A stretch of 46,243 nt of DNA from the IMG/VR virus record IMGVR_UViG_3300025913_000062, positions 1-46,243 of that record; one strand, written 5' to 3'. Of this stretch, positions 12,080 through 40,552 are shown one piece after another. Below the pieces are notes generated by a model, which saw nothing but the letters and a program-made list of their open reading frames with translations, searched no databases and was not told where the DNA came from. Source of the DNA: a virus. The first letter of the stretch is position 1, and each line of letters opens with the position of its first letter. The position numbers and the translations under genes are program-made.

Positions 12080-12394
12080 TTAGAGGTCGTAGCCTTCGGC
12101 CGGCGCCGGGCGCGTCTTGCCGGGCAGCAGCTTCCAAAAACCCTTGGACGTCTTGCCGCGATCGGGCGTGTTGATGTCAGCGTTCCACGTCACGCCGAAA
12201 AGGTCGACTTCCTCGCCGGCTTCGTTGGTCGTCGGCTTTTCCAACGCTTCCTTGCCGACATTGTCGGGATGATCGACCCAACCTTCCGGAACGTCTTCCT
12301 CGCGCTGGAAAATATCGCTCTGCCCGTTCGGGCCGTAGCGCCATGCCGGCCAATCCTTGTCGGCCTTGGGGTCGGCAAGCGTCTTGTCTTCCAT
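12080..12394 (-). CDS. Hypothetical head-region protein ending GYDL
   Basis: 104 residues, acidic and Trp-rich (KDWPAWRYGPNGQSDIFQRE, then PEGWVDHP). ATG with a good ribosome site (AAAGGAGACTG). It is likely a small virion or assembly protein, given its place between a structural protein and the adaptor. The last four residues are Gly-Tyr-Asp-Leu, one of several proteins here ending in aromatic-Asp-Leu. No family recognised. Confidence 0.6.
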   Translation of the reverse strand: MEDKTLADPKADKDWPAWRYGPNGQSDIFQREEDVPEGWVDHPDNVGKEALEKPTTNEAGEEVDLFGVTWNADINTPDRGKTSKGFWKLLPGKTRPAPAEGYDL

Positions 12395-12408
12395 GATCAG
12401 TCTCCTTT

Positions 12409-12855
12409 TCAGCCAAATACTTCAATATGGATCCACGTTGCCCCGACAGATGCCGGCACTGCCAGGATCGTCAAGCCGAGCAACGATACCACGGTTTGTT
12501 GGGTCCGCGTTACTCGAAACTTCGCCTGCGTATTCGTCGGCTGTCCGTCCATCTGAGCATTGATGACATCCGTCGAACCTGCAGGCGCTTCGGCAATTGC
12601 TGAAATTCTCGGAATATATCCTGCCGGATAAGCGAGAGGATAAACCCAAGTCAACGTCCCGTCTGCGGCAGTTTGAACCCTAACTTTCTGCGCACTAAAC
12701 GGAATGCTTTTCCATGCCGTGCCGTCACTCCACATGAGACCTTGCCCGACGCCGGGAATGTCAGTCACTTCGATAAATTTATTATCGAATTGCGCCGGAT
12801 CGGGCAAAGTCGCGTTCGTGTAGGTCCCTGTAATTGGTGGGCTGTGCCAAGCCAT
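12409..12855 (-). CDS. Virion structural protein with C-terminal beta domain
   Basis: 148 residues. The N-terminal third is short and Pro-rich with IPGVGQGLMWSDGTAWKSIP. The C-terminal 90 residues (VRVQTAADGTLTWVYPLAYP, then VSLLGLTILAVPASVGATW) are a beta-sandwich found at the end of many phage head and tail proteins. It lies among head-decoration-type genes between coat and adaptor. It may be a head fibre or decoration protein; the exact role is unknown. Confidence 0.6.
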   Translation of the reverse strand: MAWHSPPITGTYTNATLPDPAQFDNKFIEVTDIPGVGQGLMWSDGTAWKSIPFSAQKVRVQTAADGTLTWVYPLAYPAGYIPRISAIAEAPAGSTDVINAQMDGQPTNTQAKFRVTRTQQTVVSLLGLTILAVPASVGATWIHIEVFG

Positions 12856-12912
12856 CGATAAAGCTCCCCAGCACCCGCGAGGATGCCCCCTTCCGCTCTA
12901 TCTCCTGCTTCA

Positions 12913-13299
12913 TCAGCCGAGGCCGGCTAATTCCTCCTGGCGCAGATTGGCGATATCAGCCGCTCGATCCGGTGCAGCCGCAAGCAGCGCGTCATATTTC
13001 GCGTTGATGGCGTCTTTTGCCTGCTGCAGAGGATCGGGCGGATTGAGCAGAGCGTCGATTTCCGCATTGGCTGCGGCAGCCGCCTGCTCCTGCTCGATTC
13101 GAGCAGCATAATTGGGCGTGCCAGTATATTCGGCCGTCACGCCGTCACCGAGGCTTGCCGCCTTCTGATCGGCGAGGGTCGTCGAAAATCCGTCCTCGCC
13201 GGGAATGAGAGCAAGCCCGTCATCGAAGCTGCTGACGTCTTCGCCATTTTCCTGCCAGGAAAAACCGGCGCCGTCCTTGAGAAAATGCCACAAGGCCAT
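12913..13299 (-). CDS. Hypothetical protein, Ala-rich helical C-terminus
   Basis: 128 residues. Residues 1-60 are mixed (MALWHFLKDGAGFSWQENGE) and 65-128 are strongly helical and Ala/Asp/Gln-rich (IEQEQAAAAANAEIDALLNP), ending LRQEELAGLG. It has a strong ribosome site and sits in the head block. A helical tail like this is seen in small chaperones for tail or head proteins, but this is only a resemblance. Confidence 0.55.
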   Translation of the reverse strand: MALWHFLKDGAGFSWQENGEDVSSFDDGLALIPGEDGFSTTLADQKAASLGDGVTAEYTGTPNYAARIEQEQAAAAANAEIDALLNPPDPLQQAKDAINAKYDALLAAAPDRAADIANLRQEELAGLG

Positions 13300-13313
13300 G
13301 ATCGTTTCTCCTG

Positions 13314-14144
13314 TTAGGCCGCGAACACGGCAAAAGCCGTTACAGCGGCGGCTGCAGCGCCTGTCGTACCGGCAGCGTCGGTCGTAAAGGCGTAAGAAAT
13401 GCCGTTCGCAAGATAGAGACCGCCGGGAATGTTATCCGAAAAAGCTGCATTGGCAGGGATCGGAAAAGTTGCGATGGGGGTGTCGGTGCCGACGACCGGA
13501 GCGCTCGCCTTATCGTAAATCTGCAGATATGTAATCGCGGCGCCGTTCTGACCCCAAAATTTCACCAGATCACCCGCCGTCGTTTTGACGTTCGTCGGAG
13601 ACCCTCCGGCTGCGGTCGACGTGATGCGTGATTTGACGTTTGGCTTACGGGCGCGATCCCAAGTCGTTCCATTGTACATTTTATTGTAAGAAGCGACAAC
13701 GATACCCAAACGCGCATTCGATACGCCGTCTACAAAACCGTTTTCAGCTGTAATAGCTGATGCTGAATCTTGGGCAAGCAACGTAACATTCAATGAACCT
13801 TGCTGACCTAATTGAAGGTCGCTGCGCTGTCCCGAGACAAGAGTAGGACGGCCAGTGTTATAAATCCCGCCAACCTTCACCGGATTGCCGCTGTCCGTCA
13901 TGGCGCTGCCGACATTGCCGACAACCTGCTGCACCGCCGCGCCACCGCCCGAGCCTCCGCCTGCCGGAGAAATCGTGCCGTCAGCATTCAAGACGCCAGC
14001 GACGAAAACCGCAAGCGCCTTGGCCTCCTGGCCTGTCTGTGTGGGATCGTTCGGGTCCGCGCGCTGGACATCGATCGGAATATAGCCGCGCTCATTGTTC
14101 GTGGCGCGGGTCGGAAGAACCGGCGTGTTGGGATTTACGGCCAT
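13314..14144 (-). CDS. Virion surface (head decoration or fibre-like) protein
   Basis: The ATG at 14144 (MAVNPNTPVLPTRATNNERG) has GGAAGGAATT upstream, giving 276 residues. A Gly-rich hinge (PAGGGSGGGAAVQQVV) follows residue 50. The C-terminal half has YNKMYNGTTWDRARK and a beta domain with GQNGAAITYLQIYDKASAP and GGLYLANGISYAF, a fold common in phage decoration proteins. It follows the small decoration-like gene downstream of the coat gene. The role is inferred from composition and position. Confidence 0.6.
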   Translation of the reverse strand: MAVNPNTPVLPTRATNNERGYIPIDVQRADPNDPTQTGQEAKALAVFVAGVLNADGTISPAGGGSGGGAAVQQVVGNVGSAMTDSGNPVKVGGIYNTGRPTLVSGQRSDLQLGQQGSLNVTLLAQDSASAITAENGFVDGVSNARLGIVVASYNKMYNGTTWDRARKPNVKSRITSTAAGGSPTNVKTTAGDLVKFWGQNGAAITYLQIYDKASAPVVGTDTPIATFPIPANAAFSDNIPGGLYLANGISYAFTTDAAGTTGAAAAAVTAFAVFAA

Positions 14145-14159
14145 GGAAAATTCCTTCCT

Positions 14160-14208
14160 GCGAAAATGAAAGCGCCCCACCCGGCGCGGGTGAACCGGAT
14201 GAGGCGCC
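14160..14208 (-). terminator. Terminator-like hairpin downstream of decoration gene
   Basis: On the minus strand GCGCC (14207-14203) pairs with GGCGC (14176-14172) around an inner CCGG/CCGG stem, and the U-rich TTTCATTTTC follows. It lies between the small decoration-like gene and the next virion gene, where partial termination could reduce expression of distal virion genes relative to coat. Confidence 0.5.
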
Positions 14209-14257
14209 CTTCAACCCACGGCCGGAGATTAGAGCCGTGTCCTGGCGGTTGACTGCT

Positions 14258-14542
14258 TTAGGCGTCCAGTCCGACGACCAGACTTGCCTGCGCCGATCCC
14301 ATTCCGCCGCCAGTCGCGGAAACCGCGATCGAGGTAGCTTCGGCGGGAATACGAAATTCCGCGTCGTCATAGACGAAGAAATCGACAATCACGCCAGAAG
14401 GACCATTGAAGGTCAATTCCGTCTGCCCGACTTTGTTCGTAAAAACTCGCAATACGCGATTATTCACGTCCAATCCGCTTCCGATCAGCAAAGATGCTGC
14501 GCCAGCTGTTACGGAGACAGAAGGTCCAGTCGGACAGAACAT
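14258..14542 (-). CDS. Small head decoration-like protein
   Basis: The ATG at 14542 is preceded by AAAGGAAAA, giving 94 residues. It is almost all beta-type and small residues (VSVTAGAASLLIGSGLDVNN, then FFVYDDAEFRIPAEATSIAV). It lies just downstream of the coat gene, where many phages place a decoration or cement protein. The same frame continues upstream to 14674, but that part is antisense-like overlap of the coat gene end. Confidence 0.6.
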   Translation of the reverse strand: MFCPTGPSVSVTAGAASLLIGSGLDVNNRVLRVFTNKVGQTELTFNGPSGVIVDFFVYDDAEFRIPAEATSIAVSATGGGMGSAQASLVVGLDA

Positions 14543-14565
14543 AGAATTTTCCTTTCGCTGAAAAA

Positions 14566-15882
14566 TTAAACGCCGTTGACGCGGCTCAGGCGACGGCGCT
14601 CGCGGACGTTCACATTCAGAGCGACGTCGAACCGGACGCCATGCACGCCCGTGTTGAAGTCCGAGTGCTGCCACATGCGCACCGTCAGCGGGATCTTCGA
14701 CAGCTTGCGCCGCATGGACGTGTCCGACGCCGGAAGGATGAGCGGCACGGTGTTGACCACCATGGCTTCCTTCTGGATGATCAGACGCGGCCCGTAGCTA
14801 GTCGACGCGGCGCCGACGAAGGTCATGAGCGCGCCGGCCGCCGGAGCGGCGTTCACGGTCGCGTGCGCAGTGTTGATATTGACGTTGTCGCCGGTTCCCG
14901 AGCCTGGAACGATCATGGCCGGGAAAATCGTCAAGGTTGCCGCGCCCGTGCCATCCGCCGTCGCCGCGCTGACGACGGTGAACTGCTGCAGACGGGCCGG
15001 ATTGACGAGAGCCTGCTTGCGCTGGTCATAGGCAAAAACGCCCGCCATCGTGAAAACCGCGCCGGCCTCCACGGTCGCGTTAGCGCCGAGATTGCCGACG
15101 ACGAGCGTCTGCGTGAGGCGCAGGCCGTTGACGGTGCCGGCCTTAGCGACGGCGGCATAATTGACGTTGGAATTGGCGTTGGTGACGGTACCGGCCGTCG
15201 CCGAACGCGAACCCGTGGTCAGAACCGGAAGCTGCTGCGTGAACAGCGTATTGATGCCGCCGATTTCGCCCTGGAAGCCACGGCGATAGGTGCCGGCCGG
15301 CATCGGCTGGCCGCCCGTGATATTGTAAATCACGTTGCTGCCGAGCTTCTGCTTGTCGAAGAAATTGAAGACGTAAGCAAGATCGCTATCGTCCACGCCC
15401 TCTTCCTTGAGGCGCGTGTAGCCGCTTGCCGCATCGTCATAGGTGACGACCGGATTGCCCGGAGTACCGGTCCAGTTGTTCGAGGCATAGACGCAGGCGG
15501 CGAGAATATAGGCGTCGATTTTTTCCGCCATCGACGTAGCGGCGCCGAGCAGCGCCTTGCTCTCGCGCGCATCGCCGATCGTCTGGATCTTGACGAAATC
15601 GCCCCAGCCCATGTTGGCGTTGAAAGTGCCGGTGACGGCGAAAAGCTCGGAACCGAAAACCAGGCCGTCCGTGCCGCCGGACAGATCCTTGACGCCCTGT
15701 TCGGTGCGCGTGATGTTGAAGCGCGGCGTGACCTGCTCGAGAACCTGCAGGCCATTGCGGTCATCCATCTCGCCGTCCATTTCGTTCCACGAAACGACTT
15801 GGGCGGAAACGAGATTGTTCTGCAGCACCATTGCGAAGGCGTTGAGAACGAGCTTCTGTTGTTCGGCTGTGACGGCACCCAT
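14566..15882 (-). CDS. Major capsid protein (P22 coat-like, HK97 fold)
   Basis: The ATG at 15882 (MGAVTAEQQKLVLNAFAMVL) follows AAGGAAGGGG; 438 residues, against 430 for P22 gp5. The middle has GFQGEIGGINTLFTQQLPVL, where P22 coat has a similar stretch ending LPVLTK, then a beta-rich region that would be the inserted I-domain, then VPLILPASDTSMRR and HSDFNTGVHGVRFDVALNV near the end. It forms the icosahedral shell on the scaffold encoded just upstream. A perfect inverted repeat spans its leader. Coat identity is supported by the portal-scaffold-coat order. Confidence 0.88.
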   Translation of the reverse strand: MGAVTAEQQKLVLNAFAMVLQNNLVSAQVVSWNEMDGEMDDRNGLQVLEQVTPRFNITRTEQGVKDLSGGTDGLVFGSELFAVTGTFNANMGWGDFVKIQTIGDARESKALLGAATSMAEKIDAYILAACVYASNNWTGTPGNPVVTYDDAASGYTRLKEEGVDDSDLAYVFNFFDKQKLGSNVIYNITGGQPMPAGTYRRGFQGEIGGINTLFTQQLPVLTTGSRSATAGTVTNANSNVNYAAVAKAGTVNGLRLTQTLVVGNLGANATVEAGAVFTMAGVFAYDQRKQALVNPARLQQFTVVSAATADGTGAATLTIFPAMIVPGSGTGDNVNINTAHATVNAAPAAGALMTFVGAASTSYGPRLIIQKEAMVVNTVPLILPASDTSMRRKLSKIPLTVRMWQHSDFNTGVHGVRFDVALNVNVRERRRLSRVNGV

Positions 15883-15924
15883 GGGATTTCCCCTTCCTTG
15901 CAAAAAGCCGGTTGGGGAAATCCC
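15883..15924 (-). promoter_or_regulatory. Long hairpin covering the coat gene ribosome site
   Basis: GGGATTTCCCC (15924-15914 on the minus strand) and GGGGAAATCCC (15893-15883) are a perfect 11-bp inverted repeat with a 20-nt loop. The 3' arm ends directly at the coat ATG. The Shine-Dalgarno AAGGAAGGGG straddles the loop and the 3' arm. Folding would occlude the site; it may be a translational switch, an RNase processing site or a stability element. Confidence 0.7.
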
Positions 15925-15936
15925 TCGCGGCGGAAA

Positions 15937-16938
15937 TTATCCGGCTTGGTTCCAAGCTTTCTCGAAATCATCGAGATTTTCGGTAGCCGGGTTGATGCGA
16001 TGGCTGGAATTCGCGCCGCGCGTGTTGGTTTTCGGCGGCGCACCAGCTCCGGGCTTCGTGCGGGCCTTGCGGCCGGCGGACAATTCCGCATCGCGTTTGC
16101 TCACAAAGAGCGCCTGCTGATAGGGAGAAAGCTTGGCAACGCGTGTCGCCTCTTTCTTGTCCTGCGAAAGCTCACGGAGAATTTCAGCGCCATTTTCGGC
16201 TTCAGCACAGGCTTCGAAGGTCGGTTGGGAAAGATCCCATTCGCCTCGCATGCCTGTCTCGACGACATCTTCTCGGAAATCGTCGAACAGCTCTTCGCCT
16301 TTGGTGGACAGGTCGACAACCTGCTGCTGCAGACGCTGTGTCTGCTGCTCTTGACTTTGCTGCTGGCGCTGTTCCTGCTGACGTTGCAGGGCCGCGTCGG
16401 CTTGATCGATTGCCGCTTTCTTGACGCGGTAGTCGATCGCATCTTCGACGTATTTCTCGTCGAGATGCCCGAGGGGGTATTTCGCCTGATCGTTGGGATC
16501 GGGCGCCTTACCGATAGCAGCATATTTATCCTGCTTTTCCGGCTGCTGTCCAGAGGGATTTTTCAACGAATTGAGTTGCGCTTCCATCGCCTCGAAACGC
16601 CGCTCATATTCGCGGTTCCGACGCGTCAATTCCTTGATGCGATCGGATGGCGTCTTGCGCTTCGGTTCGTTCTGATCGCCGTTGTCATCGCCTTCGTCGG
16701 ACTGATCGCTGCCATCGTCCTGGCCGTCTTGTTCGTCGGCATTGGCAGCAGCTTCGCGCGCCTGCTTGGCTTCGTGAGCCGCCTTGGCTGCGCCCGTCAG
16801 AGGCTTTTTCGCCGGCTCCGGCTGTTCTTCCGTGCCGGCCGCCGACGCAAGGTTGGTATCGCCAACCTCGACGTCTCCGGAACCGGCCATATCCGCGAAA
16901 TTCGCCTCGAAATCGCTGCGATCATCACCAATATTCAT
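15937..16938 (-). CDS. Scaffolding protein
   Basis: 333 residues, highly charged, with almost no hydrophobic core. The N-terminus is acidic (residues 15-90, with EQDGQDDGSDQSDEGDDNGD). A coiled coil follows at about 93-125 (RIKELTRRNREYERRFEAME) and a Gln-rich stretch at about 180-210 (QRQQEQRQQQSQEQQ). The C-terminus is basic then acidic. This is typical of scaffolds that direct coat assembly and leave the head. The start overlaps the portal stop as ATGA. P22 gp8 is similar in size (303). Confidence 0.85.
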   Translation of the reverse strand: MNIGDDRSDFEANFADMAGSGDVEVGDTNLASAAGTEEQPEPAKKPLTGAAKAAHEAKQAREAAANADEQDGQDDGSDQSDEGDDNGDQNEPKRKTPSDRIKELTRRNREYERRFEAMEAQLNSLKNPSGQQPEKQDKYAAIGKAPDPNDQAKYPLGHLDEKYVEDAIDYRVKKAAIDQADAALQRQQEQRQQQSQEQQTQRLQQQVVDLSTKGEELFDDFREDVVETGMRGEWDLSQPTFEACAEAENGAEILRELSQDKKEATRVAKLSPYQQALFVSKRDAELSAGRKARTKPGAGAPPKTNTRGANSSHRINPATENLDDFEKAWNQAG

Positions 16939-19148: not shown

Positions 19149-19163
19149 CTCGCACCCCTTAAA

Positions 19164-21151: not shown

Positions 21152-21153
21152 AA

Positions 21154-21576
21154 TTATTCGGAAAGAATGAGATGCTGATAGCGAGGGCAAGACGCCATGT
21201 GGCCGGCGAAATTCGCGTCGTTGGCGTCATCGCAGATGCATGTGCCGGCCGTCGCAGGCTTCGCCTCCAGATTGAAGCCTGTCAGCGCATTCGGCAGTTC
21301 GGGGAGCTTCGACGTTTCCTGAATATCCGTCTCGAAATTCGGGATCGCGGGCGCCGTGTTGGTCTTTTTCTCCGGCGGCGGCGGTGTGAGCCCTCCGAAC
21401 GTGCAAAGCGCCCAAATGATGAATTCGATATTGTCATTGAACAGCGCGCCAAGCTCGATCGAGCGAAGCGTGATTTCCTCTGGATCGTTGCCGGCCGTTA
21501 CCATCGCGTTATAGCGCTTTTTAAGCTCAAGGCCGATACGCTTGGCGGCTTCCTTCCGGTCACGGGAAATGCTCAT
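21154..21576 (-). CDS. Hypothetical protein, helical N-terminus, Cys-containing tail
   Basis: 140 residues. The N-terminal 60 are helical (DRKEAAKRIGLELKKRYNAM, then LFNDNIEFIIWALCTFGGL), followed by a Pro-rich linker (TPPPPEKKTN). The tail has CICDDAND and ASCPRYQHL, a possible metal site Cys-X-Cys and Cys-X3-His. It overlaps the gene before it as ATGA. A small terminase role is possible by position but unsupported by a DNA-binding motif. Confidence 0.55.
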   Translation of the reverse strand: MSISRDRKEAAKRIGLELKKRYNAMVTAGNDPEEITLRSIELGALFNDNIEFIIWALCTFGGLTPPPPEKKTNTAPAIPNFETDIQETSKLPELPNALTGFNLEAKPATAGTCICDDANDANFAGHMASCPRYQHLILSE

Positions 21577-21845
21577 AGGTCAAACTCCATATTTGCGGCA
21601 GGAACTGCGCTCTGCGCTCGAACAAGGAAATCCTGGTTTGGCATCCAGGCGTCGGCATATTGCGTCGTGCCGGTCGTGAGCGGCTTGCGCCAGCCCCAAT
21701 TTTCGCCCTTGTCGTCGCAGCCCCATTGCGCATAGGCCACGCGCACGACGCCGTCCGGCTTATTGTGTTCACGGAATTTCACACGCACGATATCGCCGTT
21801 GCGCGGCGCTTGCTCCATTGGGAGCCATCCGTCCGCCGGGATCAT
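21573..21845 (-). CDS. DUF551-like small protein ending EFDL
   Basis: 90 residues with GWLPMEQAPRNGDIVRVKFR, RVAYAQWGCDDKGENWGWRK and TTQYADAWMPNQDF. The WLPMEQAPRNGD opening and W-rich WMP ending resemble the DUF551 family of small phage proteins, which have no known function. It ends Met-Glu-Phe-Asp-Leu and its stop overlaps the next ATG. Coupled to its neighbours on both sides. Confidence 0.65.
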   Translation of the reverse strand: MIPADGWLPMEQAPRNGDIVRVKFREHNKPDGVVRVAYAQWGCDDKGENWGWRKPLTTGTTQYADAWMPNQDFLVRAQSAVPAANMEFDL

Positions 21846-22069: not shown

Positions 22070-22082
22070 CCGCTTATCTCCC

Positions 22083-22442
22083 TTACAAATCAAATTCCTG
22101 CGGCGGAATATCCTCAAATTCCGCAAAATCGGCCTCTGGCACGTCGCGCTGCGCCTCAAGCCGGTTGATCGCATCGTCAATCGTCAGCGTGCCGGAAATA
22201 TCGACATGCTGCGAACGGCTGATCATCTTGGGAAAGATCTTGGTATAGAAATCGGTAGGATTATGGTCTGCCCAGGCAGCGAACCGTGCTGCCCCGCCAA
22301 TCGTCTCATGAACGTGCATGACCGTGGCACCGGCATAGCGGCCAACGTGCTGATATTGCTCTGCGCTGATCATGGGAATCTTCGCAAGTTTTGACGCAAT
22401 TTCAGCCGGGATAACCGGTACCAAATCCTTGCTGTCCGACAT
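22083..22442 (-). CDS. Candidate terminase small subunit or conserved phage protein, ends QEFDL
   Basis: 119 residues. The centre reads GGAARFAAWADHNPTDFYTK followed by IFPKMI and ISGTLTIDDAINRLEAQ. I associate this pattern with proteins next to large terminases in several phages, sometimes called small terminase subunits. Five genes separate it from terL rather than the usual zero or one, and no clear helix-turn-helix is visible, so the assignment is tentative. The C-terminus is Gln-Glu-Phe-Asp-Leu. Confidence 0.5.
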   Translation of the reverse strand: MSDSKDLVPVIPAEIASKLAKIPMISAEQYQHVGRYAGATVMHVHETIGGAARFAAWADHNPTDFYTKIFPKMISRSQHVDISGTLTIDDAINRLEAQRDVPEADFAEFEDIPPQEFDL

Positions 22443-22445
22443 CGA

Positions 22446-28625: not shown

Positions 28626-29201
28626 ATGGACATCCACGAAATTCACGACGCCAGCGGCATTGGCATCCGATCGCTGCGTAAGTTGGAAAAGCTTGGCGTG
28701 CTGAAAGTCAGCAAGTCGTCGGCGCATCCTGAGCTGTCTCGCATTCGCGCAGCGCTTCGTCGCGGCAATCCGTTGACAGCTTATCAGCTCGTCACGCTGT
28801 ACCGCTATCCTGCAATGCTCGAACAAGTCGGCGATGCACGTGCAAAAACGCGCGCCGAAATCGCTGTGGAAGCTTTGGGCGACGTGAAGGGCGAGGCATG
28901 TCCGTGGTCGATTGCCGCTGACATCCCTGGCGCTGCGATCAAGGAAAAAGAAGCCATTCGCTCGCTGGCGACATGGATCGTTCGCCATATCGATGCGCAT
29001 GCAGCGGATTATGAGCGAGGACAATTCCACGCCTATCTCGCCGTGCGTTTGCTGTATGAGGTTCCTGAAAATCTCATGCAGCAAAATTATCCCGTCCTAG
29101 CGCCGGCATTGCTGCAAATCCGCAAGCATCCGGTCATGTGGGGATATTCCGCGACGAACGAAAAAGGTCATACGGTTTACAGAAAACCGCTTGACTTGTA
29201 A
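28626..29201 (+). CDS. Putative DNA-binding protein, MerR-like N-terminus
   Basis: 191 residues. The N-terminus IHEIHDASGIGIRSLRKLEK then LGVLKV looks like the first part of a winged helix of the MerR type. The rest is helical (RAALRRGNPLTAYQLVTLYR, then REIV-free charged helices with HIDAHAADYERGQFHAYLAV). The stop lies in a perfect 9-bp hairpin, and the C-terminus is Pro-Leu-Asp-Leu. A candidate regulator for the twin operators, by location only. Confidence 0.5.
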   Translation: MDIHEIHDASGIGIRSLRKLEKLGVLKVSKSSAHPELSRIRAALRRGNPLTAYQLVTLYRYPAMLEQVGDARAKTRAEIAVEALGDVKGEACPWSIAADIPGAAIKEKEAIRSLATWIVRHIDAHAADYERGQFHAYLAVRLLYEVPENLMQQNYPVLAPALLQIRKHPVMWGYSATNEKGHTVYRKPLDL

Positions 29202-30294: not shown

Positions 30295-30356
30295 CGGCGG
30301 GGTGTGTTCGGGAGTGTGGCGGGGATGTCTCTAGCAATGTTTCAGGTTGAGCGCAA

Positions 30357-32261
30357 GTGCTAACGCTCCCAGACATCCTCAAGGGTGCTAAGATATTCCC
30401 GATCGTTCCGGGCACGAAAGATCCTGCCACAAAGCACGGCTGGCATGAGGCCACCAATGATCCCGAACAGCTCGCCCGCTGGCATCGCGTTAATCCGGAT
30501 TTCAATTGGGCCGTCGCAACTGGAATGTCCGGTCTTTTCGTTTTCGATATTGATCCGGCCGGCCTTGATTGGTGGGCGAAACTGCTTGAGCGCGATCCGC
30601 AAATTAAATCGGCAGTCAATAACGCATTTCAGGTTCGCACCCCAAAAGGAGGACTGCATGTCTATTTCAGAGGGGAAGGCCCTAGCACTGCCAGCCGGAT
30701 TGCAGAAGGCATTGACACGCGCGGCGGCATACAACGCAATGGCAAAATCGTCTCGGGAGGTTATGTTCTATTACCGGGATCAAAGACAAAAGCCGGTCCT
30801 GGACGGGTTGACGGTTCTTATTCTGAATTACCGGGCGGCACACTCGAACGATTGCCTGATTTCATGGCGGCAATCGTTCCCCAGCGAAAAAAGACAGACA
30901 CCTTAGGCCTCGATCGCAATCCCGAACATGATCAGCCTCGCAACATCGCTTGGGCGAAGGATTTGCTTGAAGGCTATGTGAAGTCGGGTCGAATCTCGAT
31001 CGAAGGCAAGGGCGGAAATAATCTCGCGTTTCAGGTCGCGGCGTCGATCCTCGACAAGGCCATATCGCCCGGCATGGCCTTTGATATGCTGTGGGAAATC
31101 TGGAACCCGCATTGCCAACCGCCGTTCGATGAATGGGAATTGGAGACGCTTGTCCGCAATGCCTCAAATTATGCGGAGGACGCAGGCGGCGTAAAAGGTT
31201 TTCAGAGCAACGCGGATGCTTTCTCGCATTTCGTCGGCATGGAAACGCCGGAGCTGACAGCACCTGTCGCCGAACGCAATCGACGCAGCAAGGTCCAAGC
31301 TCTATCCGTCTATGCTGAAAACGCTCGTGATCCCGAATGGCTGTTGCCTGGATATATTCCCGCAAATGGCATCGGTATGCTGTACGGGGCGTCGGGCAGC
31401 TATAAATCCTTTATTGTTCTCGATTGGGCTTTGTGCCTTGCAAATGGCATAGCCGGGCAATGGGGTGCGCCGCCGGTCAAGAATGACGTGCTGTTCTTTG
31501 CGGGTGAAGGTCCGAATGCCACGGCAAAGAAACGTTGGCCGGCATGGAATGAATGGCAGAATGTCGAATTCGTACAGGACAACAGATTTTTCATTCTTCC
31601 GTTCGTGCCATCATTCAATGATATTCAGGAATGGGAAAATATCAAAGCGGATCTGGCAGAGTTGAAGGTTCGGCCTGCACTGATCGCGATCGATACCGCT
31701 ACGCGATTGAATACCGGACTGGATGAAAATTCAGCCAACGATATGACAAAGATTACCAATTTCATGGAACAGCTTTCGCGCTATTACGAATGCACAGTGC
31801 TAGTGATTCATCATACCGGCAAGGATGAAAGCAAGGGTGCGCGCGGTTCGTCGGCTCTGTTCGCCAATATGGATTTCGCTATCTCGACAAAGAAGGTTCA
31901 AGATGGCACAATGCTGACTGTACGTAAGCAAAAAGATGCTGACGTCGGCGACGATAACCGTTATCTTAAGGTGAAGGAGGTTGGTCAATCGATCGTCCTG
32001 GCTCACAGTGACGAGAAGCCAAACAACGATCGGCGCGAGGAAAAGAAGCCTCGCTACGATTGGGCAAGCCGCGAAGAGCTGACAGCATTGCTCAACCAGC
32101 ATGGCGGCGAAATGTCTCATAGCGTGCTGGTGCAGGAATTGATGCGCGTTCACGGGCTCGATAGGGCTGTGGTGCAAAAGCAGCTCAAGGCCCATGACCT
32201 TCATTGGCTGAGGCCATCCGATAATCACTGGCGGATACCGAAAACGGAATTTGATCTTTAA
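30357..32261 (+). CDS. Bifunctional PrimPol primase-helicase, ends EFDL
   Basis: GTG start with AGGTTGAG upstream; 634 residues. The N-terminal 180 residues are a primase-polymerase domain: FVFDIDPAG with Asp64 and Asp66 as catalytic metal ligands and GGLHVYF with His101. A helical PriCT-like linker follows (to about 300). The C-terminal half is a RepA/DnaB-type ATPase with Walker A GASGSYKS (344-351), VLVIHHTGKDESKGARGSSA and a DNA-binding tail. It would prime and unwind at the fork together with the encoded polymerase. The protein ends Thr-Glu-Phe-Asp-Leu. Confidence 0.9.
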   Translation: MLTLPDILKGAKIFPIVPGTKDPATKHGWHEATNDPEQLARWHRVNPDFNWAVATGMSGLFVFDIDPAGLDWWAKLLERDPQIKSAVNNAFQVRTPKGGLHVYFRGEGPSTASRIAEGIDTRGGIQRNGKIVSGGYVLLPGSKTKAGPGRVDGSYSELPGGTLERLPDFMAAIVPQRKKTDTLGLDRNPEHDQPRNIAWAKDLLEGYVKSGRISIEGKGGNNLAFQVAASILDKAISPGMAFDMLWEIWNPHCQPPFDEWELETLVRNASNYAEDAGGVKGFQSNADAFSHFVGMETPELTAPVAERNRRSKVQALSVYAENARDPEWLLPGYIPANGIGMLYGASGSYKSFIVLDWALCLANGIAGQWGAPPVKNDVLFFAGEGPNATAKKRWPAWNEWQNVEFVQDNRFFILPFVPSFNDIQEWENIKADLAELKVRPALIAIDTATRLNTGLDENSANDMTKITNFMEQLSRYYECTVLVIHHTGKDESKGARGSSALFANMDFAISTKKVQDGTMLTVRKQKDADVGDDNRYLKVKEVGQSIVLAHSDEKPNNDRREEKKPRYDWASREELTALLNQHGGEMSHSVLVQELMRVHGLDRAVVQKQLKAHDLHWLRPSDNHWRIPKTEFDL

Positions 32262-32277
32262 CTTTGGGAGAATTGAA

Positions 32278-33069
32278 ATGACTAAGGAAGAAGTTGCAAA
32301 GCTCGCGTTCAACGCCGGATATAATCGGGCGCCTCAGGTGCCGATTTATGGCACTATGATCAGTGAACGTGCGCGAGCTTTTGAGGAATGGCGTTGCTCT
32401 GTGAAATTGTGGGATACGGAGCCTGTTTCTGTCGAAGCTCAGAAGAACGCCTATCAGCAAGGTTTCATGGCGGCCATGCTGCTATGCAATGCCCGTCCGT
32501 CCCCTGGCGTTCTGGACGAGGCTTGGGAAACCTTCAAGCTGATTCAAGGCTTGAAGGAGGAAAAGGCTTCGCCCGAAAAACCGAAGGATATCCAGCGCCC
32601 ATTGCTTTTCGACGGCGATGCTTTCGCCGAATTGACGGCGATGATGCGCGATCCCAGCTATGCGTGGACTTGGCATTGCAATATCGCCGTGCCGATCATG
32701 GACAGCATCGGCGTCTCGCATGAACAGGCCAATCGCGCCGCGAAGTCCATCATGGCGTTAGTTTTCGGGATCGACGTCACGCAATTCGAGCAATGGTGGT
32801 CCCTAGAAAAACATTGGGCCGATGCTCGCGCCGAATATGCGAAAAAGTCCAGCGATCTTTATGCGGACGAACCGAAAGCTAAGGGGCTTGGATTTCCTCC
32901 GGATGGAGTGCCTCTTTGCAGTGATAGGACGGTGTCCGATATTTATGCCGCTGAAAATGCAGCGCGTTTTAAGAAAGAATTACTCACATCCGATGACAGG
33001 ATCATGCATACGCCTTTCACTCAACTTGTGAAGGATGCCCTCATCCTCCTGTTGGAGCGCGTGAAGTGA
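32278..33069 (+). CDS. Hypothetical early protein
   Basis: The ATG at 32278 has TTGGGAG upstream; 263 residues. The N-terminal 40 (EEVAKLAFNAGYNRAPQVPI, then ERARAFEEWRCSVKLW) and a second stretch (QKNAYQQGFMAAMLL) show G and W spacing loosely like RMF-type modules. The middle is helical (HEQANRAAKSIMALVFGIDV, then WSLEKHWADARAEYAKKSS). It follows the PrimPol gene by 16 nt. No function assigned. Confidence 0.6.
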   Translation: MTKEEVAKLAFNAGYNRAPQVPIYGTMISERARAFEEWRCSVKLWDTEPVSVEAQKNAYQQGFMAAMLLCNARPSPGVLDEAWETFKLIQGLKEEKASPEKPKDIQRPLLFDGDAFAELTAMMRDPSYAWTWHCNIAVPIMDSIGVSHEQANRAAKSIMALVFGIDVTQFEQWWSLEKHWADARAEYAKKSSDLYADEPKAKGLGFPPDGVPLCSDRTVSDIYAAENAARFKKELLTSDDRIMHTPFTQLVKDALILLLERVK

Positions 33070-33521
33070 GCGGCGCCGGTTTCTGGAACAGCCCTACGGC
33101 GCATATCGTGCGGCGGATGAAGGAAACCGGCAACCGTCCTGGGATCGTGCGCGTCTGGAAAGACGGCATGGAGGAATGGGCGAAGGCGTTGCCGGACAAT
33201 ATCCATAAGCAGGCAGTGCGCGCATGGCTTCCCAACTGGATCGTCCGGCCGTTTTATTCAGCGGAAGAACTGGCGCCGATCATTCCGGCACTGTCGCTGT
33301 TGTTCGGGCATGAGGATCGATGGGGCGGCCAGAAGTCACCAAACCGGCTTGCCAATGAGCTGGAATTCGCAGGATTGCCCCTGCTGGAAAATGCCAGCGG
33401 GGGTTTCGTGTTCCTGCATCCCGGTTCGGGACGGCTGACGAAATTTTTCGTTGTCGAGCAATTGCATCACTGGCGGGATCATCCGTTGACGCAATCGCAG
33501 TTTGAGGAATTTTTCCGATGA
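33066..33521 (+). CDS. Conserved hypothetical protein (GTG start)
   Basis: 151 residues. GTG at 33066 overlaps the previous stop (GTGA). SGAGFWNSPTAHIVRRMKET then WLPNWIVRPFYSAEELAPII, SPNRLANELEFAGLPL and FVVEQLHHWRDH. I have seen this type of protein in the replication regions of other phages but know no function. ATGA overlap with the next gene. Confidence 0.6.
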   Translation: MSGAGFWNSPTAHIVRRMKETGNRPGIVRVWKDGMEEWAKALPDNIHKQAVRAWLPNWIVRPFYSAEELAPIIPALSLLFGHEDRWGGQKSPNRLANELEFAGLPLLENASGGFVFLHPGSGRLTKFFVVEQLHHWRDHPLTQSQFEEFFR

Positions 33522-33853: not shown

Positions 33854-33856
33854 GCA

Positions 33857-34207
33857 ATGACTGACACGCCGCACTCGATCAAGGATATCGCGATTGCCGG
33901 CTGCACGTCGGAACGAGGCATCCGTCTGTGGGAAGAAAAAGGCCTGTTCGGTGAAGTTGCCAGGACATCCGGCGACATACGCCGATTCACGGCTGATCAA
34001 ATGGCGATGGCGCGGATAATCGCAGCCGCATCGTTCGGCGGATGGAAGCTTGACGAAATATTCAATATGCTGAGTGAGTGGGGTCCGGATGTTCGAGAGG
34101 CCATCCTCGATCGGCTCACGTTGCAATTGCAGGTCGGCGCCCGACTGGCAGAAAGTTTGCCGCGCGTCGTGATGCCTGAAAAGCCCAAGCAGGATTTCGA
34201 CCTGTAA
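33857..34207 (+). CDS. MerR-like transcription regulator, ends DFDL
   Basis: 116 residues. The first 75 are a MerR-type winged helix: HSIKDIAIAGCTSERGIRLW then EEKGLFGEVARTSGDIRRF and TADQMAMARIIAAASFGGWK. The dimer helix is short (LDRLTLQLQVGARLAESL) and there is no metal or drug site, so it probably works as a DNA-binding protein only. Dimeric dyad binding makes it a candidate for the twin operators at 26968 and 27051, but nothing in the sequence links them. Ends Gln-Asp-Phe-Asp-Leu. Confidence 0.75.
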   Translation: MTDTPHSIKDIAIAGCTSERGIRLWEEKGLFGEVARTSGDIRRFTADQMAMARIIAAASFGGWKLDEIFNMLSEWGPDVREAILDRLTLQLQVGARLAESLPRVVMPEKPKQDFDL

Positions 34208-34213
34208 GTGATT

Positions 34214-36052: not shown

Positions 36053-36735
36053 CCTACCCACTTGAAACCGCGATCGTCGTGCAGAACGCCGATCAGCTTC
36101 GTGCCGTCTATGCCTTGCTCGGCGGTGTGTCGGGAAACGCCACGGCGATTTCGCAGGCATCACGCCCAGCGGCCTCCGGCTCCGATGGTGGAACCCCGAC
36201 GAAGCAGCCCGAAGCGGCCTCGCCGTCCCCTTCGACGTCGGGCTCCGTGCACGCCAATCCGGACGGCGTCACGCATGACGCGGCAGGCACCCCTTTCGAT
36301 CCGGCCCGTCATACGGGTTCGATCGTCAAGAGCGGCCTGTGGCGGATGAAGGCCGGCATTCCGCGCGGGCCGGGCGAGGGCGAGGACGCCATTCCGGCGT
36401 CGGGCACTGGCACTTCTGCGACTGCGACGGGTTCGAACGCTGGCAGCACTGCACCGGCCCCTGCGGCGGACGATGACGACGAATTCGCGGCGTTCGCTCG
36501 CGCGGCCGGCAATTCGCCGACGACCGCTCCGGCGCGCAAGTGGACCGTCGAGGATCTGTCGAAGCTGACCAATCAGGCGGCGCAGAAGCTTGGCGATCCG
36601 GCGCCCGTCAAGGAACTGATCGGCCAGTATGTGCCGGCCGGCGAGGTGCCGCATTCGCGCAACATCCCCGAGGACAAGCGCGAGGCGTTCGCCAAGGCCC
36701 TGGAAGCGCGGGCCGGGATCACTTTCGAGGGGTGA
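36049..36735 (+). CDS. Hypothetical protein, disordered linkers, H-K-WR motif
   Basis: 228 residues. A short N-terminal fold (residues 1-35) is followed by a Ser/Pro/Ala/Thr/Gly linker, then VTHDAAGTPFDPARHTGSIV then KSGLWRMKAGIPRG, a short motif common in phage proteins next to replication genes. A second linker with DDDDEFAAFARAAG follows, and then a helical C-terminal domain (VEDLSKLTNQAAQKLGDPAP). The base composition is more GC-rich than in its neighbours. Function unknown. Confidence 0.65.
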   Translation: MTYPLETAIVVQNADQLRAVYALLGGVSGNATAISQASRPAASGSDGGTPTKQPEAASPSPSTSGSVHANPDGVTHDAAGTPFDPARHTGSIVKSGLWRMKAGIPRGPGEGEDAIPASGTGTSATATGSNAGSTAPAPAADDDDEFAAFARAAGNSPTTAPARKWTVEDLSKLTNQAAQKLGDPAPVKELIGQYVPAGEVPHSRNIPEDKREAFAKALEARAGITFEG

Positions 36736-36754
36736 TCGTTTTCGGCGCGGTGGC

Positions 36755-36820
36755 GTCGAACCTCTGTTGATTGATCAGAGCGAATTCAATCCGCCCGCCG
36801 GGAGCGATATCCCGGCACCT
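36755..36820 (+). other. Two hairpins upstream of the DUF2800 gene
   Basis: CTCTG/CAGAG around 36761-36779, then GCCGGGA (36797-36803) and TCCCGGC (36810-36816) with a 6-nt loop, followed by ACCTTTACG. They fill the 117-nt gap. The second could be a weak terminator or a leader structure. Confidence 0.4.
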
Positions 36821-36852
36821 TTACGTAACTATTATGTCTTGGGAGGGCTGAC

Positions 36853-38085
36853 ATGGATCAGCTAGAACATTCGCCGCTTGGTGGATCGGGCGCAAAGCGC
36901 TTTCTGAATTGTGGCGGCTCTTTCCTGCTGCATCGCCGGGAAATCGAGCAAGGCACATTCGAGAATATCACAACGGAATGGGCGCAGCGCGGAAACGCGG
37001 CGCATCTGCTCGGCTCGACGTGTCTATCGTCTGGTCGCGAGCCTTACGAATATATCGGCGTCGAATTCGAGGGCCTTATCGCCGGCTGGCCGGATGGCAT
37101 CGATCTCGATCCTGTCAGCGTCTACGTGACGCACTGCCAGAAAATCCGCGATGCCAACCCGGACGGCGAAACGATGATAGAGCAGACAATTCATCTGCCG
37201 CATCTGCATCCGCTGCTGAAAGGCACCGTAGATTTCGGCCATTGGGTTTTCGACAATCACACCGCCAGGGCGTGGTTGGTCGATTATAAAAATGGCGAAG
37301 GCGTCGGCGTCTATGTGCTGGATAACGAGCAGCTCCTTTATTACAGTTTCCTGCTCGTCATGCATGTCCCTGCGCTCATGGAAGCGCCCGACGATGCCGT
37401 AATGACGCTGGCGATCGTGCAGCCCAATTTCTTCGGCATATTCGAGGCACCGGAAGAATGGGAAGTCACGTTCGGCGATATCCGTAAATGGGGTCACGAA
37501 ACGCTGCTGCCGCGCATGTGGGAACTGTATCGTCGTGATCCGAACGGATATCTTGAAGAAGATTTCGAGACTGGCGATCACTGTCAGTTTTGCCCGGTGC
37601 TGCTCGACTGCCCAAAGATGCAGGCGGCGTTTGAGAATTTCGTCGAAGGCGAAGAGGATTTTATCATGATGCTCACCAACGCAGAGCTTGACGCTTATTA
37701 TGCGCAGCGGGACAGCGCACGTCGGTTCATGAACGCGCTCGACAACGTGATTCATGCTCGCCTTACGACCGGAAATCCGTCCGACTTCAAGCACGCGAAG
37801 CTTGTCGAGAAAAAGGTCAACCGCGTGTGGCGTCCAGGCGCCGACGCTGTGTTGAAGGAAGCTTTCAAGGAAAAAGCCTACGCACCGCCCAAAATCATTT
37901 CCCCGGCTCAGGCGGAAAAGCTTTCGTCGCGCGGCAAGGAACTGGCGCTGGAATGGGGCTACAAGCCCGAGAGCTTCGGCCTGTCCGTGGCACCGATGAG
38001 TGATCCGAGGCCAGCGGCAACGCGCAAAGGCAATGCTCACGTTTTCCAGGCGTTCGAGCAGTCGACGGAAGAGCAGGGTTGGTGA
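36853..38085 (+). CDS. DUF2800 Cas4/AddB-like PD-(D/E)XK nuclease
   Basis: 410 residues with TTGGGAGGG before the ATG. It has SPLGGSGAKRFLNCGGSF (Cys20), AQRGNAAH (44-51), GTVDF (Asp127) and VDYKNGEG (Asp144, Lys146), the nuclease core. CQFCPVLLDC (Cys244, 247, 253) with Cys20 gives the four cysteines of an iron-sulfur cluster as in Cas4 and AddB. DUF2800 genes often pair with DUF2815 genes, as here. Likely an exonuclease in recombination or genome processing. Confidence 0.82.
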   Translation: MDQLEHSPLGGSGAKRFLNCGGSFLLHRREIEQGTFENITTEWAQRGNAAHLLGSTCLSSGREPYEYIGVEFEGLIAGWPDGIDLDPVSVYVTHCQKIRDANPDGETMIEQTIHLPHLHPLLKGTVDFGHWVFDNHTARAWLVDYKNGEGVGVYVLDNEQLLYYSFLLVMHVPALMEAPDDAVMTLAIVQPNFFGIFEAPEEWEVTFGDIRKWGHETLLPRMWELYRRDPNGYLEEDFETGDHCQFCPVLLDCPKMQAAFENFVEGEEDFIMMLTNAELDAYYAQRDSARRFMNALDNVIHARLTTGNPSDFKHAKLVEKKVNRVWRPGADAVLKEAFKEKAYAPPKIISPAQAEKLSSRGKELALEWGYKPESFGLSVAPMSDPRPAATRKGNAHVFQAFEQSTEEQGW

Positions 38086-38086
38086 G

Positions 38087-38236
38087 ATGGACGCGGAATG
38101 CGATATGTGCGGAAATCCGGTGACGGAAGAAAACCGCGTCGAAGATCACGACAAACAGCTTCAATTCTGTAGCGATCATTGCAAGCATGAATGGTGGCAG
38201 GAAGAATGTGCAAGGCTCGATAGAGAGGGTTGGTGA
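38087..38236 (+). CDS. Small zinc-finger protein
   Basis: The ATG at 38087 gives 49 residues: MDAECDMCGNPVTEENRVED then QFCSDHCKHEWWQEECARL. Two CXXC/CX3C pairs make a treble-clef type zinc site. The start lies one base after the nuclease stop. Possibly a nucleic-acid or protein adaptor. Confidence 0.65.
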   Translation: MDAECDMCGNPVTEENRVEDHDKQLQFCSDHCKHEWWQEECARLDREGW

Positions 38237-38237
38237 G

Positions 38238-38423
38238 ATGCCTAATCCGAAAAATCATCCGAAGTGCCCTCGCTGCAAGGGTGAGGGATTTTATCTCCGG
38301 GCAATCGGTCGTGGATATTACCGGGACGGAAGTTTCGGGCATAACGATTGGCAAGACTGCGATTGTTATCCGGAAATGCCGGAAAATCATCTGCCACAAG
38401 CGATAGTGCCGAAGGAACGGTGA
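38238..38423 (+). CDS. Small zinc-ribbon protein
   Basis: The ATG at 38238 gives 61 residues: HPKCPRCKGEGFYLRAIGRG then DWQDCDCYPEMPENH. The CPRCKGEG and CDC pairs resemble half of a DnaJ-type zinc ribbon. It lies between another Cys-rich protein and a membrane protein with a Cys motif, so three metal-binding small proteins occur in a row. Confidence 0.6.
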   Translation: MPNPKNHPKCPRCKGEGFYLRAIGRGYYRDGSFGHNDWQDCDCYPEMPENHLPQAIVPKER

Positions 38424-38424
38424 G

Positions 38425-38625
38425 ATGAACAATATTTTGTACGGCACATTGATCGGCATTGCGGTCGGTTCGGTTGTGTATCTTTTTTCATTGATACCGC
38501 CGACCAAGCCTTCGTGTTTTGGGGATTTCCCTTTGCGGTTTCCTCATATTCAGGCTGAACGCGATTGCATAACCTGTCCTGTATTTGCGCAGTGCCTGCA
38601 GAAAACGCCACGATTTGATCTTTGA
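38425..38625 (+). CDS. Small membrane protein with Cys motif, ends FDL
   Basis: 66 residues. Residues 4-24 are a membrane segment (ILYGTLIGIAVGSVVYLFSL). The cytoplasmic or periplasmic part has AERDCITCPVFAQCLQ, a CX2CX5C site. It ends Pro-Arg-Phe-Asp-Leu. GGTGAG lies before the ATG. No family recognised. Confidence 0.55.
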   Translation: MNNILYGTLIGIAVGSVVYLFSLIPPTKPSCFGDFPLRFPHIQAERDCITCPVFAQCLQKTPRFDL

Positions 38626-38692
38626 CATTTGCGCGGCGCGTGATAGATCGAAATTCTTACGTCAACTTTTATGTGAAAGAAGGGAAATAAAC

Positions 38693-39418
38693 ATGGCCGA
38701 GACTTTCCGTTATGTGTGCCAGAAGCCGGCACGCACGCTTTATTCGTCGATCGCAGTCAAGTCGTCGCCGCGCCTCGACGACGGTTCGCAAGCAGAGCCC
38801 CGTTTTGGCGGCACGTTCGGCCTGGACAAGGTCGACTTCGACGCCCTCATTCCGGTCATGGTCAATGCGATCAAGTCGGAGACGGGCGGTTTCACTTCGC
38901 CGGCCGATTATTATCTCGCTTGCATGTCGGGCAAGACTGCCGGTGAGCGTGCAATCGCCACGGCGGAATTCAAGTGCCAGAACCCGGCCCTGTCCGAGGA
39001 CCAGCGCTTCAAGATCCGAGAGAAGGCCACACAGCGCGCGGATCTTTACAAGGATTACGCTGGCATTCTGATCGCGAATTCCAAATTCCCGATCGAGCTG
39101 GCACGCTTGGAAGCGGGCAAGGTGATCGACATCCCCGACGAAGAGCATGCCCGGGCTGTCGCCGGCAAGGAGCTGTTTTTCCCCGGTGCCTGGGTCGTGC
39201 CGTCCGTCGCGATCAAGGGTTTCCGTCGCAAGAAGCTCGACGATAAGGATGGCTGCACGGCCTATCTGCAAAATTGCCTTTTCATCAAAAAGGACGCCAA
39301 GCTCGGCGGCTCCGGCCCGTCGAATAACGACGTGTTCGGCAGCTTCGCAGCAGGATATTCGGATTTCGATCCGACCGGCGGCGCTCCGACTGCTGAGGAT
39401 GTGCAGGCGGCATTCTAA
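38693..39418 (+). CDS. DUF2815 ssDNA-binding protein
   Basis: The ATG at 38693 has AGAAGGGA upstream; 241 residues. FRYVCQKPARTLYSSIAVKS then PRFGGTFGLDKVDFDALIPV and GSFAAGYSDFDPTGGAP; the end has the low-complexity acidic tail type (TAEDVQAAF) expected of OB-fold ssDNA-binding proteins. DUF2815 is a phage SSB family encoded near DUF2800 nucleases. It would coat single strands for the encoded polymerase and recombination proteins. Confidence 0.8.
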   Translation: MAETFRYVCQKPARTLYSSIAVKSSPRLDDGSQAEPRFGGTFGLDKVDFDALIPVMVNAIKSETGGFTSPADYYLACMSGKTAGERAIATAEFKCQNPALSEDQRFKIREKATQRADLYKDYAGILIANSKFPIELARLEAGKVIDIPDEEHARAVAGKELFFPGAWVVPSVAIKGFRRKKLDDKDGCTAYLQNCLFIKKDAKLGGSGPSNNDVFGSFAAGYSDFDPTGGAPTAEDVQAAF

Positions 39419-39432
39419 TCCCGCAAGGGATC

Positions 39433-39477
39433 GGCGGCGAGGAAATCTCTTTGGGGATTGTCGGAAGCTTCGCCGCC
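39433..39477 (+). other. Stem-loop downstream of the SSB gene
   Basis: GGCGGCGA (39433-39440) and TCGCCGCC (39470-39477) pair perfectly across a 29-nt loop; GTTATTTCC follows. It may end or stabilise the abundant SSB mRNA. The T run is too short for a strong terminator. Confidence 0.45.
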
Positions 39478-39499
39478 GTTATTTCCTTGGGAGGGAAAT

Positions 39500-39706
39500 A
39501 TGCAGCCAATGAAGCACAAGCTGATAATCGGTCGTTCCACGGTCGGTTCCGGGCGCGGAATGGCAAGAGCCTTTCGTCTACTTTACGAAAACGTCGATCG
39601 TCTGCTAGAAGTCGGTACGGCGAGGATCGAGCGCGAGGATGGTTTTGTTATCTGCCGCGTCAATCTTGACTACGGCGTCGCTCCGACGATCGGGGAAAAG
39701 CAATGA
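39500..39706 (+). CDS. Small basic hypothetical protein
   Basis: The ATG at 39500 has TTGGGAGGG upstream; an earlier in-frame ATG at 39458 lies in the stem-loop and lacks a site. 68 residues: KHKLIIGRSTVGSGRGMARA, then FRLLYENVDRLLEVG and EDGFVICRVNLDYGV. A pattern with conserved Gly and Arg; no family recognised. Overlaps the next gene as ATGA. Confidence 0.55.
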   Translation: MQPMKHKLIIGRSTVGSGRGMARAFRLLYENVDRLLEVGTARIEREDGFVICRVNLDYGVAPTIGEKQ

Positions 39707-40053
39707 ACCTGGAAATCATTCCGGCTCGGAATAATCCGAAAACCGAAGGACGCTATCTGTGCTTCGTGTCGCATGACGTGAAGGCGGAAATCGCCAAGCC
39801 GATCGTTCTGCTGTGGTGGAAAGGCGGTTGGCATTTCGATGAAAGCAATGTCCGCTTTCCGCGTCCGCCCTACGGCTATGCCGGGCCTCTGCCGACTGGC
39901 AAACTTGCAGATCTTTTTCCGCAGTGCGTGAGCGAGACGCATTTCACAGGCAAGGTTCCGGATGACGATGCAATCGATGAAGCTGCGGACAAGCTCCGTG
40001 CGCATCCCGAGTGGAAGCATCCGAATTCGGAAGAGCAGGAGTATGACCTGTGA
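39703..40053 (+). CDS. Hypothetical protein ending QEYDL
   Basis: 116 residues: PKTEGRYLCFVSHDVKAEIA then IVLLWWKGGWHFDESNVRF and VYGYAGPLP-type segment (PPYGYAGPLPTGKL). The Trp-rich beta part is like a small phage domain also present in the gene at 40238. It ends Gln-Glu-Tyr-Asp-Leu; stop overlaps the next start (GTGA). Confidence 0.6.
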   Translation: MNLEIIPARNNPKTEGRYLCFVSHDVKAEIAKPIVLLWWKGGWHFDESNVRFPRPPYGYAGPLPTGKLADLFPQCVSETHFTGKVPDDDAIDEAADKLRAHPEWKHPNSEEQEYDL

Positions 40054-40241
40054 TCGAGGCAATGCGAAAGCATTGGTTGCCTATGGAAAGTCGCAGCCAT
40101 GAGGAAGCGACTTTGCAGCACCAAATGCGTGAATTGCGTTTCACCCATGCTCAATATCTCCCGGCACTGCGTGCGGCCAACGAACGGCGTTCGCTTTATG
40201 CTGAATGGACAAAGCTCCCTTGGACGGACCCGGTGCTATGA
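40050..40241 (+). CDS. Small helical protein (GTG start)
   Basis: 63 residues from the GTG at 40050, overlapping the preceding stop. IEAMRKHWLPMESRSHEEAT then LQHQMRELRFTHAQYLPALR. Charged helix, no family recognised. Overlaps the next gene as ATGA, so four consecutive genes are coupled. Confidence 0.55.
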   Translation: MIEAMRKHWLPMESRSHEEATLQHQMRELRFTHAQYLPALRAANERRSLYAEWTKLPWTDPVL

Positions 40242-40552
40242 TCATTAACAAAATGGAAGAACCGCCGTGCGATGGCCTCTATGTGGGCTATATGGCGTAT
40301 CTCGCCCGTCCAGGCGAATATTTCCCGATGGTGCTGGTTTTTGCTGGCGGCAAATGGACCTACCATCTTTCGGGCCAGCGTACGGGCCTGGAAGTCGTCG
40401 GCTGGATCGGGCCTCTTCCGGCTTGGGATGCCACGCATGCGGCTCGCAACGAGGAATGGTTGCGGGATGCTGGTTTTTCTGCCAAACCATCAGCAACCAA
40501 GAAATATCGGCCTCTGCCGAAAGAGGCGCCGGCGCAGGAGTATGACCTATGA
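40238..40552 (+). CDS. Hypothetical protein ending QEYDL
   Basis: The ATG at 40238 gives 104 residues: MEEPPCDGLYVGYMAYLARP then FPMVLVFAGGKWTYHLSGQR and LEVVGWIGPLPAWDA. Like the product of 39703 it has a Trp-rich beta part ending in a GPLP turn, so the two may be distant paralogs. Both end Gln-Glu-Tyr-Asp-Leu. ATGA overlap with the next gene. Confidence 0.6.
   Translation: MIINKMEEPPCDGLYVGYMAYLARPGEYFPMVLVFAGGKWTYHLSGQRTGLEVVGWIGPLPAWDATHAARNEEWLRDAGFSAKPSATKKYRPLPKEAPAQEYDL

Follow-up and report, generated by a model that had tools for sequence, protein, structure and literature searches.

A C-terminal E-[YF]-D-L motif shared by unrelated proteins of one phage clade is a candidate docking tag

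Introduction

In phage T4, the proteins gp43, gp55 and gp33 are tethered to the sliding clamp gp45 by near-identical C-termini (PMC2988020). The motif that binds the beta clamp is likewise short, Q-phi-x-[L/M]-[F/L] or Q-phi-x-[L/M]-x-[F/L], with a Gln that is helpful, not essential; the surroundings of the clamp pocket are basic, acidic or C-terminal flanks are favoured, and the peptide LQLELDF, acidic at motif positions 3 and 5, came out of phage display on the clamp (PMC11139829). Here we describe a C-terminal motif, aromatic-Asp-Leu (hereafter the tag), that recurs on proteins encoded by IMG/VR virus record IMGVR_UViG_3300025913_000062, analyzed over its whole length of 46,243 nucleotides (the window), and on proteins of related phages. 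No report of such a tag was found in open PMC text, a search that did not cover subscription papers or preprints.

A common ending on proteins of the window

Genes were called with our own codon-usage gene finder; gene and protein counts are approximate. Eight of the ~73 predicted proteins of the window end in [FY]DL and a ninth ends in PLDL. Within the window proteins the same tripeptide occurs internally once in 13,726 residues, which gives ~0.005 expected endings, and the probability of at least eight is ~1e-23 if genes are treated as independent. These endings had been listed in an earlier interpretation made from the DNA alone (the sequence-only reading). When the eight C-termini were re-read, endings, coordinates and the differences between the codons behind them were all correct, as was the LDL ending of the gene at 28626 (28626-29201, which ends KPLDL). 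The description of the eight proteins as unrelated needs an adjustment, in that they represent seven families, the products of the genes at 39703 and 40238 being paralogues.

Distribution in related phages

The clade sample comprised 18 related sequences (genomes or contigs), of which 14 had lengths of 40-46 kb, and 5,172 predicted proteins from other phage or prophage loci served as controls. [FY]DL endings were present on 131 of 1,015 predicted clade proteins and on none of the controls; when [FYHL]DL was allowed, the counts were 162 and 1, respectively. Each of the 14 genomes of 40-46 kb encoded 7 to 12 tagged proteins, and the 162 tags fell into 33 sequence clusters. It should be noted that the clade sequences are related, so that P values are only indicative and the 33 unrelated tagged clusters are a better measure. 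Neither of the two outcomes that the sequence-only reading had named as refuting was observed: homologs across the clade kept the ending, and unrelated phages did not have it.

A near relative of the window in IMG/VR (PrimPol 86% identical) has nine such endings, on orthologs and one new gene, whereas a search of INPHARED found no near relative. Wider scans with PrimPol and 22083-family queries recovered many further contigs. Among the close loci of the 22083-family scan, the readable homolog ended in [FY]DL everywhere but in L233, where the best match does not look like an intact homolog; in L206, L209, L224 and L234 the homolog was not read. Distant homologs in L235 and L236 (~31-34% identical) were without the tag, and a weak match (G148/L238) was rejected as a relative because it looked unrelated. 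In a search for the host, 398 Sphingomonadales genomes yielded this family solely on a contig of a metagenome-assembled genome (MAG) in which a clade contig is also present, apart from one weak match; 397 genomes from the order to which L147 (Alsobacter) belongs yielded none.

Anatomy of the tag

The clade consensus is (P)-x-[Q/L/P/M]-E-[Y>F>L>H]-D-L-COOH. In 76 distinct tails from nine genomes, Leu at position -1 and Asp at -2 were invariant by construction of the search. Position -3 was Tyr in 40 tails, Phe in 23, Leu in 8 and His in 5; Glu occupied position -4 in 50; position -5 was Gln in 17, Leu in 13, Pro in 10 and Met in 7, and Pro was found at position -7 in 28. The tag follows a linker of 0 to ~50 residues and is kept though the domains are 18-47% identical in family alignments. 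Outgroup PrimPols stop at the junction where the clade tag begins or no more than a few residues from it (WSIPTA and WRVPLP versus WAIPKREYDL).

A common ending might also arise by chance, from compositional bias or from a repeated DNA element at gene ends, and about a third of the tagged genes (51/162) end in an ATGA that overlaps a possible next start, which somewhat constrains the last codons. However, codons vary freely, with all six for Leu and both for Asp used in tags, and non-overlapping ends are tagged too. Together with the absence of [FY]DL from the control proteins, this codon usage led us to reject chance and DNA-level causes, whose probability we regard as negligible. The view that selection acts on the protein was therefore upheld, as codons differ and linkers diverge while the tag is kept.

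Families that carry the tag

Six core families were tagged in every copy found: the PrimPol, MerR-like, helix-turn-helix (HTH)-like (28626) and 12080 families (Table 1), the GPLP small-protein family (24/24, most members just 24-47% identical) and the 22083 family (all 16 copies). One further small family was likewise tagged throughout (11/11). Accessory genes were tagged as well, including a Mom-like DNA modifier (PHROG E = 1.6e-28), a PAPS-reductase-like protein, an HNH endonuclease and cytosine methyltransferases, the latter with the tag in G009, L017 and G412 and without it in three other copies (G010, G411 and G418). Tagged proteins to which a function could be assigned mostly act on DNA. 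For most tagged small families no function emerged from Pfam and PHROGs searches, and the structure model of the 22083 family was poor, with a predicted local distance difference test score (pLDDT) of 55.

The tag is confined to a single phage clade and, with one exception, to genes outside the particle set. The exception is 12080, a family of small proteins that lies inside the virion block. Tagged relatives of this family in 14 genomes are what one would expect if the tag directed proteins into the virion or to an assembly hub, as the sequence-only reading had considered. However, none of the 212 members of other particle-block families was tagged, and such a role appears extremely improbable. 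The same reading had also raised a proteolysis signal, which might set the lifetime of early proteins and would suit a C-terminal element on many early-type proteins. An ssrA-type degron has small non-polar residues at its end (Leu-Ala-Ala, for example), whereas all tags end in Asp-Leu, and the ending is fully conserved on proteins of stable function such as PrimPol (18/18) and on enzymes with no obvious need for turnover. We found no evidence for such a signal and consider it very improbable.

Two side observations concern the MerR-like family, whose cluster of 19 includes one HNH endonuclease. In G415, gene 19088 (232 aa) encodes an HNH endonuclease fused to a MerR-like protein, whereas the HNH endonuclease encoded by gene 10438 of G410 (151 aa) stands free and itself ends in a tag, QMEHDL. 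In L017 (5308-6591), G003 (36243-36953) and G010 (contig C97, ~8306-8420), the methyltransferase gene and a second, tag-ended open frame (..EWASCAPTET..) overlap. In G003 the tag stands at the end of both overlapping frames. Judged from these frames, dual coding is possible.

The tagged genes of the window are listed in Table 1. The window ends themselves (1-146 and 46098-46243) match with few mismatches (126/126 identical from position 21), and from this match the record probably represents a near-complete genome, either circular or with terminal redundancy.

Table 1. Tagged genes of the window and positions of their tags
Tag and gene	Tag position	Strand	Product	Remarks
GYDL-stop, gene 12080-12394	12083..12094	(-)		14/14 relatives end [YFLH]DL
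EFDL, gene 21573-21845	21576..21587	(-)	Small protein with no assigned function	Also tagged in G001, G411, G415
EFDL, gene 22083-22442 (119 aa)	22086..22097	(-)	Terminase-small-subunit-like (a guess only)	Gene upstream of terminase gene
EFDL, gene 30357-32261	32247..32258	(+)	PrimPol plus AAA helicase (PF09250, PF13481)	18/18 tagged in clade
DFDL, gene 33857-34207	34193..34204	(+)	MerR-like DNA-binding protein (PF13411)	18/18 tagged
RFDL, open reading frame 38425-38625 (66 aa)	38611..38622	(+)		Weakest member; not picked by gene finder; identical protein in G001, no other relative has one
EYDL, gene 39703-40053	40039..40050	(+)	Small protein, GPLP family	
EYDL, gene 40238-40552	40538..40549	(+)	Paralogue of 39703	Start ambiguous (in-frame ATG at 40205); C-terminus unaffected
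PLDL variant, gene 28626-29201	29187..29198	(+)	HTH-like	17/17 tagged; relatives end FDL, LDL or HDL

Clamp-like tails in other phages

Rhizobium phage RHph_N65 (L012) and its IMG/VR relatives (L292-L302) form a second, unrelated clade (PrimPol 38-57% identical) with a shared clamp-like tail. The pattern [DGS..]-[IVL]-F-x-COOH was present on 63 of 387 proteins of this clade versus 20 of 4,403 in other loci. PrimPol was tagged in all cases (12/12), and so were SSB (the single-stranded DNA-binding protein), RusA, an exonuclease, nucleases, methyltransferase-like proteins and PAPS reductase. Gln occupied the clamp-motif position in six of the 63 tails. Because the tails are clamp-like and some read exactly QIDLF, QPDLF or QEDIF, this clade likely uses docking to the host clamp. 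Candidate MerR relatives in the RHph_N65 clade were rejected, as HNH endonucleases had been pulled into the cluster by a fusion.

Other shared endings were seen in passing. In Brevundimonas phage Delta (L013), three proteins end in FDIL, namely the terminase small subunit, one protein of unassigned function and an endonuclease (genes 3681-4373, 41288-41686 and 43405-44850), and this sequence is possibly a third tag type. Ala-Ala endings were in excess in L138 (10/35) and L306 (8/37).

The putative partner of the tag

That one tail is shared by many proteins, is kept through divergent linkers and occurs on captured genes as well strongly suggests a selected C-terminal docking motif for one shared partner, and the proposal of a common docking tag on unrelated proteins thus gained support. 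From the DNA-handling proteins among those tagged, and from the RHph_N65 parallel, we infer that the hub is at replicating DNA, at the fork; that it is DnaN is our guess. The last four to six residues would then form a short linear motif, x-[Q/L/M/P]-E-[Y/F, less often L/H]-D-L-COOH, on a flexible tail, through which no fewer than 33 phage protein clusters, unrelated in other respects, would bind one common pocket. This pocket may sit on a DNA-borne replication-fork hub, most probably the host sliding clamp DnaN, which would read the tag in the hexameric register phi2-E3-[YFLH]4-D5-L6-COOH, which lacks the customary Gln1. In this way, tagged proteins would be tethered to newly replicated phage DNA, like gp43, gp55 and gp33 to gp45 in T4. 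Taken as a whole, this account is tentative and in our estimate has somewhat under an even chance of being right. We see the balance as roughly even for another formulation, in which E-[YF]-D-L is the clade's own address label for an undescribed pocket (on a phage hub, or through an unusual clamp mode), gained by incoming genes and paralleled in another lineage.

The sliding clamp had been named as a possible partner in the sequence-only reading, and part of that suggestion stands: the tag has the acid-hydrophobic-acid-hydrophobic-COOH layout of the hexameric clamp motif, and in another clade clamp-like tails occur on the same kinds of protein. The final hydrophobic residue (position 5 or 6) is Leu in all 162 tags, by construction. 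However, the canonical Gln1 and Leu/Met4 are absent, and the Gln-initial pentapeptide register fails, as Asp would fall where the clamp needs Leu/Met. Since none of the 162 tags fits Q-phi-x-[L/M]-[F/L] or the hexameric form, the tag cannot be called a clamp-binding motif in the sense of membership.

Several other observations weigh against DnaN. Few tags have Gln1, Tyr/Phe predominates at position 4, and in E. coli peptides Phe at position 4 weakened inhibition (PMC11139829). Sphingomonadales genomes show canonical motifs (QVSLF in DnaE and a DinB-type tail, QLSLGI). In two MAGs with clade contigs, all E[FY]DL-stop matches were on phage contigs and none was on host contigs; therefore, a host hub would be read in a way that host proteins do not use C-terminally. 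Finally, the phage carries its own family-A DNA polymerase.

It is conceivable, though in our judgment unlikely, that the same docking tag is read by a clade-specific, phage-encoded hub in place of the host clamp, and this is the main rival. The candidates are the family-A DNA polymerase, SSB, the winged-helix protein 33066 or another core protein. In T7, the tails of the helicase and SSB bind the phage polymerase. Confinement of the tag to the clade and its absence from the host contigs of the two MAGs are in line with a phage hub, and candidates are available among the untagged core non-structural families (33066, 36049, 36853, 38693 and 41291). The DNA polymerase, SSB, SNF2 helicase, DUF2800 and RuvC-like proteins of the clade are without the tag. 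The 33066-33521 product is a clade-specific core protein with no relative among the outgroup loci searched. However, its AlphaFold model (pLDDT 92; helical with a winged helix) had no clear match in PDB, the nearest being the C-terminal part of the NrS-1 primase-helicase with a weak Z of 5.2, and with weak winged-helix matches and no sign of a peptide-binding hub we rejected it as a recognizable one. PolA, SSB, SNF2 and DUF2800 proteins are also present in untagged outgroups, and SSB and DUF2800 proteins have aromatic tails of their own. These proteins (38693-39418 and 36853-38085 in the window, and their relatives) end in Phe or Trp, as in DVQAAF and EEQGW, and their tails are of a different class from the tag. 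In outgroup SSBs the ending is EIPF or APF.

The tails of SSB also bear on another possibility, in which the tag would bind a different hub of the host, for example RNA polymerase, a chaperone or the pocket of host repair proteins that takes the SSB tail. Acidic-hydrophobic C-terminal tails are a common format, and DNA-binding regulators are among the tagged proteins. However, an SSB tail has Pro-Phe after acidic residues, whereas all tags end in Asp-Leu, and methyltransferases and PrimPol would seem to have no obvious need of RNA polymerase. We view such a hub as improbable. DnaN, in the unusual register described above, is the partner to which we tentatively return.

Comparison with known systems

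If the tag is a docking motif, a phage is able to link a sixth of its proteins to a single hub by a four-residue C-terminal label, which captured enzymes acquire. Such a label would mark which proteins without assigned function work together, provide a ready peptide bait for finding the hub and allow a test of whether the host sliding clamp is rerouted by phages. Judging from the clamp-like tails of the second clade, the strategy seems to have arisen more than once.

The tag resembles the SSB tail (DDDIPF) as an acidic-hydrophobic C-terminal ligand of a hub, but it has no Pro-Phe end and is found on many proteins, not on SSB. In the RHph_N65 clade, PrimPol, SSB, methyltransferase-like proteins, nucleases and small proteins of one genome also share a C-terminal motif; that motif, [DGS]-[IVL]-F plus one free residue, is nearer to the canonical clamp motif and belongs to another phage lineage. 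With the beta-clamp motif itself, the tag has in common that it is short, as that often C-terminal motif is, with a hydrophobic-x-hydrophobic end (as in QLVLGL of Pol IV and QLSLPL of Hda) and, like LQLELDF, acidic residues at positions 3 and 5. It differs in having no conserved Gln1 or Leu/Met4, in the dominance of Tyr/Phe at position 4 and in its strictly C-terminal Asp-Leu. Closest in kind are the clamp-binding C-termini of T4, where the hub is DNA-borne: in both cases unrelated phage proteins carry near-identical hydrophobic and acidic ends behind divergent linkers, and this combination was found here. T4 has its own clamp, gp45, whereas no phage clamp was identified here and the partner is a proposed one. 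Three such proteins are present in T4, compared with 7-12 per near-complete genome, in 33 clusters, in the phages described here.

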